Origin: Oscillospiraceae bacterium
GTDB taxonomy: Bacteria; Bacillota; Clostridia; Oscillospirales; Acutalibacteraceae
NCBI GenBank assembly: GCA_031271865.1
Contig: JAISUW010000055.1
Span: forward strand, 1-64,000
DNA: 64,000 nt
Direction: 5' to 3'
Shown here: positions 3,401 to 20,709 of the stretch, one piece after another
Numbering within the stretch: the stretch's first letter is position 1
How the letters are laid out: every line of letters starts with the position of its first letter
Notes under the pieces: model-generated
Database searches by the model: none
What the model was told of the DNA's origin: nothing
The model's input: only the letters and a program-made list of their open reading frames with translations
Program-made: the position numbers and the translations under genes

Positions 3401-4912
3401 CGGAGCGCCGACCAACTGGATCGGCTGAATGTGCGTCAGTTCCAAGATGCGCTCGGGTATCTCGCGCTCCGGGTCTATGTACGTATTGAAGGACTCTTCA
3501 GTTTTGCCGCCGGCTATCCGCACTGCCCCGATCTGTATCATGCGGTCTTTGCTCGGGGAAAGCCCGGTGGTCTCTACATCAAAGACGCAAATGGGCGCAT
3601 CGAACGGTATGGAATCCGGCTTCTCGGTACCCAAAAGAACTGCGGGGCGCAGGTCATCCACATAGTAGCCTTCCATGCCGTAGAGTATCTTTACGCCGTA
3701 TTTCTTACCGGCTTCTCTTGCCGCCGGGAAAGACTGCACCACACCATGGTCGGTGACGGCAATCGCCGGATGCCCCCAAGCGGCTGCCCGCTTGCATAGA
3801 TCCTCTACAGAAGGCAGCGCATCCAAGCGGCTCATGTTGGTGTGGCAGTGCAGTTCTACGCGCTTCTCGGGCGCATTGTCTGTTGGCTGAATCGGCCGGA
3901 CAGTAGCTATGGATTTCGGTTTCAGGATGTAGCTCTGCGAGAACCTGTCCATCTCAAACTCACCGCGCAGGAGGACAAATACACCATCGCTCAGCGCAGA
4001 CAGCAGGGTGTCGCAGTTCTTGAGATCCTCAAAGAGCTTGCAGCTGTAGGAGGATGTGTAGTCCGTCACACAGAAGTTCATAATCTTCTTGTCACCCTTT
4101 CGGGTTTGCCGTTCCTCAAAGCCGAACACTTCCCCCCAGATTGTGGCGCTCCCATCCTGCGGGTCCAAGGTGCAAATGTCCATCGGTCGGCTTTTAATCG
4201 GCGGTCCGTATATGGTCTTGCTCCCCTCTACTGTGAAGGGTAAGCCTTTATAGAGGTCGGCATCTAAAGCGGCTGCCGGGTGGCGCGGTGCCCCTTGCGG
4301 GGCATTGGGTGCCCCTTGCGAGGCATTGGGTGTCCCTTGCGGGGCATGGTTAGCCCCTTGCGGGGCATTGGCTGCCCCTTGCGGGGCACTTCCATATACC
4401 AACGCCTCGGGTACAATATCGCCCGGCGCGGCGGACCCTACGCAGATATGCACATTCAGCTTCAGACCGAAGTGGCTTTCTATGAAAGCAGAGAGCCGCA
4501 CATCCGCTTTTTGCTGCAGGAGGACATTGACACCTGCCTCCTGCAAGAGAAGGAGGCGCAAGGTAAGGGCAAGCCCATCGATTTCGATGCCGGCGCCGCG
4601 CAGGAAGCCGTTGGCAATAGGCTCTGCGGTTTTCAGTGCACGGAGCACCCAAGGGAAGGCTTCACGGGTAAAGGCTTCGGGAGGGTAATAAAACTCCAAG
4701 TTTACTCTGCATGGGGAGAGAACTTGCTCCAGAGCGGCTTTGAAGCCATCCAAAGCGGAAGGCTCCAACCAGGTATCGGCATAGAGGTGCAGCGTCAGTT
4801 TGCGGTTCGGCAAATCCACATCCGGGCGGACACGCAAAGCAGCCGCCTCTGCCGGAGCCGCAAAGCCGGGGAGGCAGTCCGCCAAGAATTCCGCCAAGGT
4901 GTGGGTTGGCAT
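479..4912 (-). CDS. polC: DNA polymerase III subunit alpha, PolC type (OB fold, PHP, exonuclease, polymerase)
   Basis: ORF 479..5005; internal Met MPTHTLAEFL chosen as start. Exonuclease motif FDVETTGLSP inside the PHP region and PolC-like C-terminus (GIEVLPVDLNLS, GVGENAAKSL). Confidence 0.95.
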   Translation of the reverse strand: MPTHTLAEFLADCLPGFAAPAEAAALRVRPDVDLPNRKLTLHLYADTWLEPSALDGFKAALEQVLSPCRVNLEFYYPPEAFTREAFPWVLRALKTAEPIANGFLRGAGIEIDGLALTLRLLLLQEAGVNVLLQQKADVRLSAFIESHFGLKLNVHICVGSAAPGDIVPEALVYGSAPQGAANAPQGANHAPQGTPNASQGAPNAPQGAPRHPAAALDADLYKGLPFTVEGSKTIYGPPIKSRPMDICTLDPQDGSATIWGEVFGFEERQTRKGDKKIMNFCVTDYTSSYSCKLFEDLKNCDTLLSALSDGVFVLLRGEFEMDRFSQSYILKPKSIATVRPIQPTDNAPEKRVELHCHTNMSRLDALPSVEDLCKRAAAWGHPAIAVTDHGVVQSFPAAREAGKKYGVKILYGMEGYYVDDLRPAVLLGTEKPDSIPFDAPICVFDVETTGLSPSKDRMIQIGAVRIAGGKTEESFNTYIDPEREIPERILELTHIQPIQLVGAPKEAEALERFLAFAEGCVLCAHNAAFDMSFLRAAARRHTPTSAVKTAAHTAPCIDTMVLAQKLLPDLANYKLDTLTGHYKLGSFAHHSADDDARVTALALLCLMEEARRNYPTCGEDLLWFNMDVQKPNPKRLRPYHIILLVKNITGLKNLYKLITASNVEWLVGNSPRIPRSALLERREGLVLGSACDAGELYRAILDEADDEELRRIASFYDYLEIQPLGNTAYLTRPDKNTGRIPLGGAEEQREVNRRIAALGDQLGIPVCATGDVHFLDEKDAKYREVLMGGQGYTDAANQAPLFYKTTEQMIEEFAYLGKDKALEVVVTNPRKIADTLESVPPFLEGTYTPVISGSDEKLRTSCYRRMKAEYGDPLPAYVQERLDKELDSIIKNGFAVLYVIARELVKGSEDRGYKVGSRGSVGSSFAAYAAGISEVNPLVPHYLCKNCKHSEFFTDGSKGSGYDLLPRDCPKCGTPMRRDGHDIPFETFLGFDGDKSPDIDLNFAGEDQWYAHRQTEEIFGKDKVFKAGTIATIAEKNALGYVKKYLETTGQPEPSQAEMKRWAKGITGVKRTTGQHPGGMVVIPAAYEAEDFTPIQFPADKSDGDVGMTTHFDFHSLHDTILKLDNLGHDVPTIYHYLEKNTGIDVADADVCDRKLYELFASPKPLGVTAEEIGFPLGTLSLPELATPFVVGMLQKAQPKNFSDLLQISGLSHGTGVWLGNAAELIAQGVCTISDVIGTRDSIMTYLIHHGVEPLQAFKIMEIVRKGKAKKLLTEEMKEEIRTKAGNWYLDSCMKIEYMFPKAHAAAYVMAAMRLAWFKLYHPVAYYASYMSVRGSDLDTVALMEGKAAVRRRIAALEVQGKDLSKKDEDLLSAMLVCQEMLARGIEVLPVDLNLSDVKEYLIEGGKIRLPFSALSGVGENAAKSLAAARKDGRGAYLSIEELKDRTKVSSQVIDALEAAGALKGMAASNQVTLFGF
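4286..4390 (-). repeat. 21-bp coding tandem repeat (5 units) in polC, each containing GCCCC-TTGC-GGGGC
   Basis: Units begin near 4290, 4311, 4332, 4353 and 4374; encode APQGAPN-like heptapeptides. Confidence 0.9.
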
Positions 4913-7313: not shown

Positions 7314-8189
7314 ATGTTTGCCTGCGTTTGTATCGGGAAGCCGGAGGGTCGCTTATCCAAGCACACGGAGCCTGTATTGACCCGCGTGAACATCCCCGGC
7401 GGCGCTCCCTTCTATCGGCTGGACACGAAGCCGCGGCGCGGCATCCTTCCCTGGAACGAGATAGAGCGCTGTGCAGGCCGCCTGCGCACCAAGCTCCTCT
7501 TGCCGGCGGACGTTTCCCTGCCGGAAAGCCATATCCTTCCGGCGGATTCCCGTCACCCCGACCCCGGGATGCGGGAATTCAAGGCGCGGCGCTTGCCGCT
7601 GATGCTTGCCGTGCGCTTGGCGGCGGAGATTTTGCGAAACTGTGCTGTGCCGCCGCAGGACTTGCGCATCACGTTCGTTGACCCGGACGGCAACTGTACA
7701 AAGGGCTTGGAACCGCTGGTGATGCTCGCCGGTTCACTGCGCGTTTATACCCATGAACCGGCCGCCTACCGCCAAACCGCCGCCTCCCTCCTGAACCGTT
7801 ATGGGGTCACGCTCCTGGTGAGTGACTCCCCGCAGTCCTTCGCAAATGCCGACTTGGTCATTTGCGACAACCTCTCCCTCCTCACCGGACGTGAGCGCGG
7901 GCTGATCTGCACTTCGGATAATACGCGTTCTCTCCCGGATTGCCGCGTTGCCCGTATCGGGCAGGTCTTCCTGCCGCCGCCCTTGGATAGCCTAATTCCG
8001 CCGGACTTTGACCCGGTTCGCTTTGCGGCGGCACTATATGAACTGTGCGGCGTAAAAGAGATGGATCGCCTCAGCTCGGCACCAACCCTCGGCGGGGAAA
8101 AGCCGCAGCCCATAGAGGTCAAGGCACTCGGCGAACTGCTCCAAAGCGTCTGTGACCACGGACTGCGGCTGGTGAAGAGCGGGCGGTGA
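7314..8189 (+). CDS. Conserved-looking hypothetical protein
   Basis: 291-aa ORF, RBS-like AAGGAGAGGG upstream; no family recognised. Confidence 0.7.
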   Translation: MFACVCIGKPEGRLSKHTEPVLTRVNIPGGAPFYRLDTKPRRGILPWNEIERCAGRLRTKLLLPADVSLPESHILPADSRHPDPGMREFKARRLPLMLAVRLAAEILRNCAVPPQDLRITFVDPDGNCTKGLEPLVMLAGSLRVYTHEPAAYRQTAASLLNRYGVTLLVSDSPQSFANADLVICDNLSLLTGRERGLICTSDNTRSLPDCRVARIGQVFLPPPLDSLIPPDFDPVRFAAALYELCGVKEMDRLSSAPTLGGEKPQPIEVKALGELLQSVCDHGLRLVKSGR

Positions 8190-8215
8190 GGCTGCAATCA
8201 CTTGATACCTATATT

Positions 8216-8248
8216 CTTGCCTCCTGCCTCATGCTTCTTGCCTCTTCC

Positions 8249-8250
<2 letters not shown>
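8216..8250. repeat. Degenerate CTTGCYT heptamer tract
   Basis: cttgcct cctgcct catgctt cttgcct cttcctc; abuts the groEL stop. Confidence 0.7.
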
Positions 8251-9952
<1,702 letters not shown>

Positions 9953-10397: not shown

Positions 10398-10426
10398 ATT
10401 TTAATACAATCCCGCCCAAATGTCAA
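10398..10426 (-). promoter_or_regulatory. groESL promoter
   Basis: Minus strand TTGACA-17 bp-TAAAAT, upstream of CIRCE. Confidence 0.8.
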
Positions 10427-10483: not shown

Positions 10484-10934
10484 CTTGCCTCTTGTTTCTT
10501 GCTTTGCACTTTGGTTGGGTTCTTCCCAATGGATTCATAAAAGGATGGGTGTGTTCCTCCACCCCGGGGGCCGGCCCCCGGGCCCCGCCCGGGGGCGCGT
10601 CCCGCGGCGCCCCCTGGACCCCCCGCGGCCGGGGAGTCCCCCGGACCCCCTTGCAGAATCGCCCGCTTGGATGGAAAATTTGCCTTATGTCCTGTTGGGC
10701 AAATATTCCATATGCGCTGCTTGGGTGCCTCTGTGTGGGTTGGGGGCAGGGTTTTGGTGCTCTGTATGGGCGGGACGTGGCCATGGGGACGTGCCTATAT
10801 GGACGTCTCTACGCCTTGTCTCTTGCTTCTGGCTTTGTGCATTATGACGATGATTCGGTCGTTTATTGGCTGAACAATCGTGATTATGACGAGGATTGGT
10901 GCCTCTTGCTTCTTACCTCTTGCCTCCTGTTAGG
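10484..10934 (+). repeat. GC-rich structured repeat element, copy A
   Basis: Homologous (inverted) to 20166..20690; shared blocks tttggttgggttc, GC hairpin core, ttggatggaaaatt...cttatgtcctgttggg...ttcca, gcgctgcttgggtgcctctg, ggttgggggcagggttt. Confidence 0.88.
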
Positions 10935-11197: not shown

Positions 11198-13837
11198 TCA
11201 CTTTGCACCCGCGATTGCTGCCTGCGCGGCGGCGAGGCGGGCGATCGGCACACGGAAGGGGGAGCAGGAGACATAATCCAGCCCGATGGAGTGGCAGAAC
11301 TTGACGGAGGTGGGATCGCCGCCGTGTTCGCCGCAGATACCGAGCTTGATGTCGGGGCGTGTAGCCTTACCTTTCTCGGCAGCCATCTTGACGAGGGCAC
11401 CGACACCGGTCTGGTCGAGGCGCGCAAAGGGATCGTTCTCGAAGATTTTCGCTTCATAGTAGGCATCGAGGAACTTACCTGCGTCATCGCGGGAGAAGCC
11501 GAAAGTCATCTGGGTGAGGTCATTGGTACCGAAGGAGAAGAACTCAGCCTCAGTGGCAATCTGATCGGCGGTAACGGCGGCGCGCGGTATTTCAATCATG
11601 GTGCCGACCTTGTAGTGCAGATCTGTGCCGGAAGCGGCGATAAGCGCGTCGGCTGTCTTGACTACGATGTCCTTGACGAACTTGAGTTCCTTGACTTCGC
11701 CGACGAGCGGAATCATGATTTCGGGGACGATATTGTAGTCGGGGTGGGCGGCGTTGACAGCGAGGGCTGCATTAATGACGGCTGTGGTCTGCATCTCGGC
11801 AATCTCCGGGAAAGTGACGGCGAGGCGGCAACCGCGGTGGCCCATCATGGGGTTAGATTCGTGGAGGGACTCAATCTTGGCCGCGAGCTCCTCATAGCTG
11901 ACACCGAGTTCCCCAGCCAGCTCTTCAATCTCGTTCTTCTTGGTGGGTACGAACTCATGCAGGGGCGGGTCGAGGTAGCGGACGGTCATCGGGCGTCCTT
12001 CAAGGGCCTCGTACATGGCGGTGAAGTCGCCTTGCTGATAGGGAAGGAGTTCTTCCAAAGCTGCCTTGCGTGCCTCGGCATCTTTCGCTATAATCATCTT
12101 GCGGATGCTCTTGATGCGGTCGCCCTCAAAGAACATATGCTCCGTGCGGCAAAGGCCGATGCCTTCCGCGCCGAACTTCACTGCCTGAATGGTATCGCGG
12201 GGGTTGTCGGCATTGGTGCGGACTTTAAGGGTGCGTTTGGCATCCGCCCAGCCCATGAACTTTTCAAAGTCACCGGAGATTGTAGCTTCTACTGTTGGGA
12301 TGGCTTCGCCGTAAATCTTACCGGTGGAACCGTCGAGGGAGATATAATCGCCTTCCTTATAGTCCTTGCCGCCGAGTGTGAAGTACTTCTCCGCAGCGTG
12401 CATGGTGATATCGCCGCAGCCGGAGACGCAGCAGGTGCCCATGCCGCGGGCAACAACGGCCGCATGGGAAGTCATGCCACCGCGAACCGTCAGGATGCCC
12501 TGGGCGGCTTCCATGCCCTCGATGTCGTCGGGGGATGTTTCGAGTCGGACGAGGATGACTTTCTCACCGTTTGCTGCCCAAGCTTTGGCATCGGCGGCAT
12601 CAAAGACGACGCGGCCGGTTGCGGCGCCCGGAGAGGCCGGGAGGGCGGAGCCGATGGGCTTGGCGGCCTTCAGCGCTTTGCTGTCAAACTGCGGATGCAG
12701 GAGCGCATCGAGTTGCTGCGGTTCCACACGCAGGACGGCGGTGTCCTCATCAATCATGCCTTCCTCTACGAGAGCAACGGCGATCTTGAGGGCGGCAGCA
12801 GCGGTGCGTTTGCCATTGCGGGTCTGGAGCATATAGAGCTTCTTGTTCTCAATTGTGAACTCCATATCCTGCATATCTTTGTAGTGATTCTCAAGGCGGT
12901 TGGCGATTTCGACAAACTGCGCGTAGACTTCGGGCATATCCTGCTCGAGCTGTGCTATCGGCGAGGGCGTACGCACGCCGGCAACCACATCCTCGCCCTG
13001 CGCATTAATGAGGTACTCGCCGAAGAGGGCTTTCTTTCCGGTCGCGGGGTCGCGCGTGAAAGCCACGCCGGTGCCGGAATTGTTGTTCAGGTTGCCGTAG
13101 ACCATGGGCTGCACGTTGACGGCTGTGCCCCAGCTGTACGGAATCTCGTTCATGCGGCGGTATACATTGGCGCGGGGGTTGTCCCAAGAACGGAACACGG
13201 CCTTGACGGCTTCGATGAGCTGCACTTTCGGGTCGGACGGGAAGTCCTCGCCTGTCTGCTCTTTGTAGAGTGCCTTGAACTTCGCCGTAAGCGTCTTCAT
13301 GTCGTCTGCGGAGAGGTCGATATCCTGCTTGGCACCTTTCTCCTCTTTGAATTTGTCGATGACATGCTCAAAGTCGTGTTTGGAAAGCCCAATGACAACA
13401 TCGGAGAACATCTGGATGAAGCGGCGGTAGCTGTCGTAGACAAAGCGCTCGAAAGCCGGGTCGGGGTTTGCGGCAATCATGCCGGCGGCAACCTCGTCAT
13501 TCAAGCCGAGGTTTAGGACGGTGTCCATCATGCCGGGCATGGAAGCACGGGCGCCGGAGCGCACAGACACCAGAAGCGGATTCTGCGGGTCGCCGAATTT
13601 CTTCTCGTTGATTTCCTCTGTAACTGCAAGAGCAGCGTCGATTTGGTCGAGGATTTCTTGCGCGATGACTTTCCCGTCATCATAGTAGCGCGTGCAGGCT
13701 TCGGTGCTGACCGTGAAGCCTTGGGGTACGGGCATTCCCATGTTCACCATCCCGGCGAGGTTTGCGCCCTTGCCGCCGAGCAGTTCGCGCATGGTTTCGT
13801 TGCCTTCCTTGAATAGGTAGACGTACTTGTGAGCCAT
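11198..13837 (-). CDS. ppdK: Pyruvate, phosphate dikinase
   Basis: MAHKYVYLFKEGNETMRELLGGKGANLAGM; GGMTSHAAVVARGMG; FGTNDLTQMTFGFSRDD. Confidence 0.96.
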   Translation of the reverse strand: MAHKYVYLFKEGNETMRELLGGKGANLAGMVNMGMPVPQGFTVSTEACTRYYDDGKVIAQEILDQIDAALAVTEEINEKKFGDPQNPLLVSVRSGARASMPGMMDTVLNLGLNDEVAAGMIAANPDPAFERFVYDSYRRFIQMFSDVVIGLSKHDFEHVIDKFKEEKGAKQDIDLSADDMKTLTAKFKALYKEQTGEDFPSDPKVQLIEAVKAVFRSWDNPRANVYRRMNEIPYSWGTAVNVQPMVYGNLNNNSGTGVAFTRDPATGKKALFGEYLINAQGEDVVAGVRTPSPIAQLEQDMPEVYAQFVEIANRLENHYKDMQDMEFTIENKKLYMLQTRNGKRTAAAALKIAVALVEEGMIDEDTAVLRVEPQQLDALLHPQFDSKALKAAKPIGSALPASPGAATGRVVFDAADAKAWAANGEKVILVRLETSPDDIEGMEAAQGILTVRGGMTSHAAVVARGMGTCCVSGCGDITMHAAEKYFTLGGKDYKEGDYISLDGSTGKIYGEAIPTVEATISGDFEKFMGWADAKRTLKVRTNADNPRDTIQAVKFGAEGIGLCRTEHMFFEGDRIKSIRKMIIAKDAEARKAALEELLPYQQGDFTAMYEALEGRPMTVRYLDPPLHEFVPTKKNEIEELAGELGVSYEELAAKIESLHESNPMMGHRGCRLAVTFPEIAEMQTTAVINAALAVNAAHPDYNIVPEIMIPLVGEVKELKFVKDIVVKTADALIAASGTDLHYKVGTMIEIPRAAVTADQIATEAEFFSFGTNDLTQMTFGFSRDDAGKFLDAYYEAKIFENDPFARLDQTGVGALVKMAAEKGKATRPDIKLGICGEHGGDPTSVKFCHSIGLDYVSCSPFRVPIARLAAAQAAIAGAK

Positions 13838-20082: not shown

Positions 20083-20165
20083 AATAAGTAGAGGAGGCAA
20101 CCGCATCTGCGGGAGTATCTTTGTTTTTTTTTCGTTTAAGCGGCAAGAACACCTTGCCTACTACT

Positions 20166-20690
20166 TTCGTCAAATTCACGATTGTTAAAGCAAAAAAACC
20201 GCATTTCTCCGTCATATTGCACAAAGCAAGAAGTAAGAGCAAGAATACGGCCCCACAACCTTCGTCAAATTCACGATTGTTCAAGCGAAAAAACAGCTAT
20301 TCTCCGTCATTATGCACAAAAAAAGGAAAGAGGCAAAAACCCACAACCACATCCGACCCATACAGAACACCGAAACCCTGCCCCCAACCCAAACAGAGGC
20401 ACCCAAGCAGCGCCAATGGAAAATTCGCCCAACAGGACATAAGGCGAATTTTCCATCCAAGCGGGCACATCTCCGCGGGGGTCCGGGGGACTCCCCGGTC
20501 GCGGGGGGTCCCGGGGGCGCCGCGGGATGCGCCCCTGGGCGGGGGTTTGGGGGCGGCGCCCCCAAGGTGGAGGAACCGAGCCATCCATTTATACAACTTT
20601 CAGGCAGAACCCAACCAAATCCATAAAACCTTCGTCAAATTCACGATTGTTCAAGCAAAAAAACCGCAATTCATCGTCAAAGTGCACAAA
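20166..20690 (-). repeat. GC-rich structured repeat element, copy B, with three 60-nt direct repeats (20166-20225, 20261-20320, 20631-20690)
   Basis: Reverse complement aligns to 10484..10934; direct repeats start TTCGTCAAATTCACGATTGTT and end GTGCACAAA/TGCACAAA. Confidence 0.9.
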
Positions 20691-20709
20691 AAGAGGTGTG
20701 AAAGGAACC

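Follow-up and report, generated by a model that had tools for sequence, protein, structure and literature searches.

Covariation between the two arms of a stem is commonly held to be the strongest computational argument that an RNA is functional, yet paired changes alone do not prove RNA function. A GC-rich, hairpin-dense block at 10484–10934 of the window (the 64,000-nucleotide stretch of DNA analysed here, from an Oscillospiraceae bacterium) raises this question directly: the block (copy A) and a second, inverted one (copy B) differ by changes that keep their stems paired, and the original prediction read them as a structured RNA or a non-autonomous hairpin mobile element. We favor, with a probability of roughly 0.6, the reading that A and B belong to a non-coding, composite interspersed repeat that is restricted to one species, is of the same sort as BIME, NIME, and BOX, and has its hairpins maintained at dispersal or copying. 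The element is thus most likely a new composite intergenic repeat of a known kind and not a new regulatory RNA.

Two Inverted Copies and Their Parts

Copy A is non-coding and sits between groES and the 3′ end of ppdK, upstream of the complete groES promoter; copy B sits between two divergent genes, downstream of a TTGACA-17-TACAAT site, where it forms part of an ABC transporter gene's leader. Both lie in the interior of a 66.7-kb contig. Their parts are as follows, with the basis of the assignment in brackets where one applies.

start ~10275, − strand: groES, with its own CIRCE and promoter (TTGACA-17-TAAAAT at 10426–10398)
10484–10502, + strand: CTTGCC-type heptamer run CTTGCCTCTTGTTTCTTGC bordering copy A (sequence)
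10503–10563, + strand: m1 allele I, TTTGCACTTTGGTTGGGTTC ... GTTCCTCCACC, copy A (sequence; two interchangeable alleles among copies)
10564–10581, + strand: hairpin H1, CCGGGGGC/GCCCCCGG, copy A (sequence, allele counts)
10588–10616, + strand: hairpin H2 allele 1, GTCCC loop type, copy A (31-copy alignment, alleles)
10629–10644, + strand: hairpin H3 allele 1, CCGGGGAGTCCCCCGG, copy A (alignment, alleles)
10671–10711, + strand: hairpin H4, ATGGAAAATTTGCC - TTATGTCCTGTTG - GGCAAATATTCCAT, allele b, copy A (sequence, covariation)
10712–10774, + strand: module H5/tail, CGCTGCTTGGGTGCCTC ... GGTTGGGGGCAG ... TGTATGGG, copy A (alignment, RNAalifold consensus)
10785–10807, + strand: single GACGTGCCTATATGGACGTC unit, copy A (sequence; tandem in other copies)
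10834–10899, + strand: m4 repeat of ~62 bp in copy A (GTGCA..TGACGA .. GAACAATCGTGA..TGACGA)
3′ end at 11198, − strand: ppdK
20163–20225, − strand: m4 copy 1 of the copy B region
20256–20321, − strand: m4 copy 2 of the copy B region
20352–20619, − strand: copy B core, m1-H1-H2-H3-H4-H5, between divergent genes
20627–20691, − strand: m4 copy 3 of the copy B region, its end adjoining the ribosome-binding site of the ABC transporter gene

That A matches the reverse complement of 20166–20690, as predicted, was borne out by self-comparison of the window, in which A aligned with the reverse complement of 20226–20619 at 76% over 423 columns (E = 4e-82), and the motifs, stems, and shared H4 loop quoted at the time are present in both copies as described. 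Specifically, the H4 stem reads TGGAAAATTTGCC/GGCAAATATTCCA around the loop TTATGTCCTGTTG in A, with one extra mismatch in the right arm (AT for TT), and TGGAAAATTCGCC/GGCGAATTTTCCA around the identical loop in B. H1, the first of the GC hairpins, joins CCGGGGGC to GCCCCCGG in A and TTGGGGGC to GCCCCCAA in B and does carry the two compensatory pairs attributed to it, though the 2–3 nt loops differ between A and B. A long-range pairing of GGGCA (10744–10748) with GCCC (10661–10664) is possible in the model of copy A, and as this pair is nearly invariant it gives no covariation signal. The block also spans unrelated modules, namely CTTGCC heptamers at both ends, a partial GACGTGCCTATATGGACGTC unit, and one m4 repeat, of which the copy B region holds three.

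Collapsed protein-coding remnants, the outcome named at the outset as fatal to the hairpin reading, are excluded, as element lengths are out of frame, no frame is open in more than 12 of the 31 copies, and no Pfam hit was obtained. Intrinsic terminators were likewise considered and rejected (no T tract accompanies the GC hairpins, and terminator scans stay near shuffle level).

Hairpin Modules in Varying Combinations

Among the aligned copies the core is ~270 bp long and runs in the module order m1, GC-rich H1–H3, AT-stem hairpin H4, and H5/tail. Each module occurs as alleles: I or II for m1, TT/AA or CC/GG for H1, GTCCC or CTTGC-type loops on differing stems for H2, CCGGGG.. or CCAGGGGG.. for H3, TTCGCC, TTTGCC, or ATCTGC stems for H4, and two forms of H5. 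All four allele combinations were seen in 15 of 21 module pairs across the 31 copies, and the modules therefore reassort. Shorter forms also occur (m1-H1-half H2, tandem units, and m1-H1-inverted m1 fold-backs), and the fold-back m1-H1-m1′ copies at C50:2840–2980 and C9:519–775 are joined at the H1 axis.

The surroundings of the core vary as well. Element tails run on into different sequences among copies, and CTTGCC heptamers stand beside many of them on the same strand: the motif lies within 100 bp upstream in 14 of 30 copies and downstream in 9 of 26, compared with 0.6% of random 100-bp windows. The core is often joined to m4, an independent 62-bp repeat made of two short palindromes (TTGTG..CACAA and TCGTCA..TGACGA) ~20 bp apart, which has 77 copies in this genome—alone, in arrays, and beside the core—and none in 198 relatives. 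Tandem m4 arrays occur on contigs C13, C39, and C68 (stretches L142, L143, and L144); a CRISPR-like reading of them was discarded, each unit having two short palindromes and the spacing being irregular, with no repeat/spacer regularity. Two further modules were noted: GACGTGCCTATATGGACGTCCC units (the GACGTGCCTATATGGACGTC repeat) are tandem next to copies on C9, C46, and C64, with one unit at 10785–10807 of the window, and a module GGGGCAGTGCGGCGGATTTTGGCTATTTTTTGTTACCGATTGTAACTATTTCCGCCG, holding a GTTACCGATTGTAAC palindrome, replaces the usual tail in four copies (on stretches L019, L023, L025, and others).

Paired Changes and the Strand They Favor

Covariation in H4 was evaluated over 32 copies of the hairpin plus flanks, with shuffles and slid structures as controls. 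H4 cells were paired in 99.0% of cases (94.2% when shuffled; ≤47.5% for slid structures), and two-sided changes occupied 24 cells vs. 4.7 in shuffles. For H1, ~31 copies carry TT/AA, six CC/GG, and one TC/AA. With ~40 copies at hand, the proposal that the hairpin arms covary holds, A and B alone being insufficient to show it.

Compensation spans several bases at a time: one set of five copies has three H4 pairs altered jointly, and in H1 two pairs change at once with almost no intermediates. The two-sided changes thus go back to a small number of events that many copies have inherited, and the sole private one in H4—that is, a recent compensating change—is a G-C to A-T replacement in C70. Of the singletons, 13 fall on the 42 stem columns, 8 on the 13 of the H4 loop, and 26 on the 54 others (0.31, 0.62, and 0.48 per column, respectively, without overdispersion). 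The stem deficit of recent mutations is mild at most, though weak in-place selection on stems could account for it; 12 stem cells are left wobble or unpaired in present copies. As recent stem changes are neither much avoided nor, with rare exception, repaired, the fold is not evidently needed at each locus.

Nor is one strand favored overall by wobble pairs, since H4 points to one strand and H1 to the other: five of six one-sided transition-type changes in H4 give G.U when read antisense to the given strand of A, and those in H1 are, in our own reading, mainly G.T on the strand opposite to the one H4 favors (~5 vs. 1). Folding energy is lower on the given strand in 26 of 31 copies, but this comparison is not decisive because the unpaired parts of that strand are richer in G and T. 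Covariation in H4 and H1 that arises in blocks within one genome does not separate RNA from DNA hairpins.

Where the Copies Lie

The host genome is a 2.4-Mb draft in 70 contigs, with many copies at contig ends and not all copies evolutionarily independent, and the counts below are to be read accordingly. A blastn search found the element at 79 places; an iterated profile on genome stretches recovered 31 cores close to full length, along with partial ones; and a conserved 17-mer has 42 occurrences at ≤1 mismatch (0 for its reversed control), which puts the number of cores at ~42. DNA-level coverage of relatives came to ~150 genomes in all, including 13 congeners. Neither blastn of 59 relatives nor a calibrated covariance model on 148 relatives gave a match, and the 17-mer pattern did not reveal the element in the 13 congeners, where one single hit (in G007) was judged chance. 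The same judgment applies to 15 scattered single hits in unrelated phyla from a GTDB-wide exact 18-mer scan (own genome excluded) and to two single hits in viral contigs. Given these negative searches, the element is, at the level of sequence, private to this Clostridia species or its very close kin. Searches of Rfam at gathering and relaxed thresholds returned only tRNAs in the window, the best weak match being RsmW at 23 bits (gathering score 52).

All cores are intergenic, with none overlapping a predicted gene, and they lie in both orientations in convergent (5), divergent (2), and co-directional (15) neighborhoods; at least 17 copies have genes on either side within one contig. In 23 of 32 cases (p = 0.02) transcription of the 5′ neighbor runs away from the element, which is antisense to it; the 3′ neighbor points into the element in 18 of 27 (p = 0.12). 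Copies on C57, C48, C43, C25, and C22 stop 24–105 bp short of a start codon, and no promoter separates them from it, and copy A and those on C5, C50, C59, C60, and C61 are upstream of complete promoters. Some copies end just before a ribosome-binding site without an intervening promoter, so their transcription within a leader or operon spacer is probable, on the strand antisense to the given strand of A.

Other Palindromes of the Genome and Genus

Unrelated palindromes show the same behavior. The core palindrome of a second family in this genome, CCGCAATGCGG, occurs in 128 exact copies genome-wide (one for the reversed control), five of them in the window (at 28353, 28377, 28440, 44109, and 44133). 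The only Y1_Tnp-like (Y1/IS200-like, RAYT-like) gene of the genome (C56, ~7592–8302; stretch L177:1192–1902) has a marginal Pfam score of 23.5 bits with frame neighbors and 22.0 alone (cut-off 23) and is flanked on either side by clusters of CCGCAATGCGG palindromes (GAACCGCAATGCGGTTC, GGTCCGCAATGCGGACC, GCGCCGCAATGCGGCGC, and GAGCCGTAATACGGCTC) whose arms are variable but complementary. Together, this gene and the CCGCAATGCGG palindromes form a candidate REP/RAYT system. No H1–H5 hairpins or m4 repeats lie beside the gene, and the aligned cores are without CCGCAATGCGG.

The congener G001 carries a different mosaic family, whose GC-rich hairpins have perfect stems that can stand in for one another (such as GGGCGGCAATCTTGCCGCCC, GGGCGGATGCAAATCCGCCC, and GGGTGGCTTGCAAGCCACCC), at stretches L194:9780–10260, 11740–12060, and 4290–4640 and L193:4590–5120. 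This family is common to six congeners (G001, G003, G006, G010, G011, and G013) and absent from the window's genome. Block compensation is found likewise in the CCGCAATGCGG family and in this congener family, both unrelated to the core; compensated hairpin alleles are a general property of unrelated intergenic palindromes in the genus, which argues for a DNA-level cause. It is tentatively possible, if on balance doubtful, that intergenic repeats across the genus evolve by exchanging whole perfect hairpin cassettes, kept complementary by DNA-level copying (template switching or a hairpin-reading enzyme). If so, cassette exchange in unrelated families, each in its own species and with interchangeable stems at set positions, would yield RNA-like covariation without RNA selection.

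Weighing the Explanations

What, then, maintains the hairpins? A structured RNA—a cis leader or operon-spacer element, or a multi-copy sRNA, with its fold selected at each locus on the strand antisense to the given strand of A—would account for the H4 covariation and its mostly G.U one-sided changes (5/6 transition-type) on that strand, for the 23 of 32 5′ neighbors transcribed away, and for the copies 24–105 bp before start codons without a promoter between, as well as for copy B in the ABC transporter leader. However, the one-sided changes of H1 are mainly G.T on the opposite strand, in 26 of 31 copies the proposed RNA strand has a poorer fold than the given core strand, recent stem mutations go without compensation, no Rfam family matches, and copies are found in front of complete promoters and between convergent genes as well, with both orientations represented. 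We therefore regard this explanation as unlikely. Of the alternatives in the original prediction, the multi-copy, dispersed, non-coding hairpin element with covariation is upheld, and the structured RNA is left unsupported by the en-bloc hairpin alleles, the lack of a consistent wobble strand, the unrepaired recent stem breaks, and the recurrence of the pattern in other palindrome families.

The hairpins could instead be a mutational by-product with no enzyme or function of their own, in which template switching or quasipalindrome correction rewrites arms and sometimes swaps stems while recombination spreads the modules. Multi-base block compensation, the near-absence of H1 intermediates, fold-back joints at the H1 axis, and the like behavior of unrelated palindrome families in genome and genus all agree with this, and template switching is reported both to give rise to hairpin stems and to preserve them through compensatory mutation of several bases at once (PMC8794818). 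Such a process does not by itself explain dispersal to ~42 intergenic sites, and 12 uncorrected stem cells in present copies indicate that correction is infrequent; as a complete account we find it improbable. Still less probable is that the single Y1 transposase of the REP/RAYT system moves the copies as relatives of that system, either decayed or non-autonomous: the gene is flanked by palindromes, the 128 CCGCAATGCGG copies are spread genome-wide, and compensatory changes are reported in REPINs (PMC3116915), but the palindromes beside the gene are not H1–H5 or m4, the cores lack CCGCAATGCGG, and the Pfam match is marginal (22.0 bits alone). Chimeric joins at repeats and GC-rich hairpins could mimic mosaics, and with a 70-contig draft part of the mosaics may be due to misassembly; contig ends interrupt many copies, and C9 and C5 hold implausible G/C runs. 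That the element is largely such an artefact is scarcely credible, however, as A and B are inside a 66.7-kb contig, at least 17 copies are flanked by genes on one contig, and copies differ by 10–25%, enough to be resolved.

Strong within-genome covariation notwithstanding, most evidence thus favors DNA-level copying, and a composite interspersed repeat has in its favor the many dispersed intergenic copies, sub-sequences in varying combinations, and no conserved frame. Such a repeat would spread and be renewed as DNA, and a perfect hairpin would matter when a copy is made or exchanged, either because single-stranded DNA is recognized by an enzyme acting in trans (hairpin-dependent transposition) and/or because template switching rewrites one arm from the other; a resident copy would then decay. 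Secondary effects on the mRNA of some copies are plausible: insertion of a copy into a leader or operon spacer may incidentally change how the mRNA is processed or how stable it is, as for BOX, NEMIS, and ERIC. No target-site duplication, clean termini, mobilizing enzyme, or syntenic empty site in congeners was found (the ppdK–groES neighborhood is not conserved there), and inspection by eye, not exhaustive, of the 79 blastn places turned up no matching ends enclosing a gene, as an autonomous element would have.

If confirmed, this reading makes within-genome repeats a concrete source of false structured-RNA predictions and the element a clean natural test bed for stem maintenance by template switching or a single-stranded-DNA transposase.

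Relation to Known Repeats

Composite interspersed repeats are known as BIME, NIME, and BOX (PMC3049150; PMC2229807). The BOX element of Streptococcus pneumoniae, boxA-boxB(n)-boxC, is like ours in being composite, modular, and intergenic, with stable predicted stem-loops in both orientations, tandem module variation, unproven mobilization, and possible co-transcription with genes (PMC3049150). The two have no sequence relation, however, and ours has a GC-rich core and interchangeable whole-hairpin alleles with kept complementarity; the reported over-representation of BOX between convergent genes (PMC3049150) is not evident here. REP/BIME/REPIN repeats and their RAYT genes (PMC2817692; PMC3116915; PMC3733652) share extragenic palindrome clusters, two-arm compensation, mosaics, and species-specific families, and compensatory changes are reported for REPINs (PMC3116915) as well as for REPs located next to RAYT genes (PMC2817692). 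In contrast, our modules are not 20–40 bp REPs with a demonstrated GTAG or CGTC tag, nor do they flank a RAYT gene, and the separate REP-like CCGCAATGCGG family fits REP/RAYT better than the element does.

The MITE-like bacterial repeats NIME/Correia (NEMIS), ERIC, and RUP (PMC2229807) are likewise short, non-coding dispersed repeats with hairpin-forming transcripts, but we recognized no fixed terminal inverted repeats with TA ends and no target duplication, and the element's core exceeds 200 bp and is GC-rich, most of these others being A+T-rich (PMC2229807). The mosaic repeats of G001 and five other congeners resemble the element in kind—composite GC-rich hairpins with en-bloc compensated alleles—while being unrelated in sequence. 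Elsewhere in the window, a tandem repeat of another sort was noted at 25016–25646, where CCPPKPQTVCCT-type repeats form an array in a Cys/Pro/Gln-rich coding region (ORF 24430–26538, − strand).
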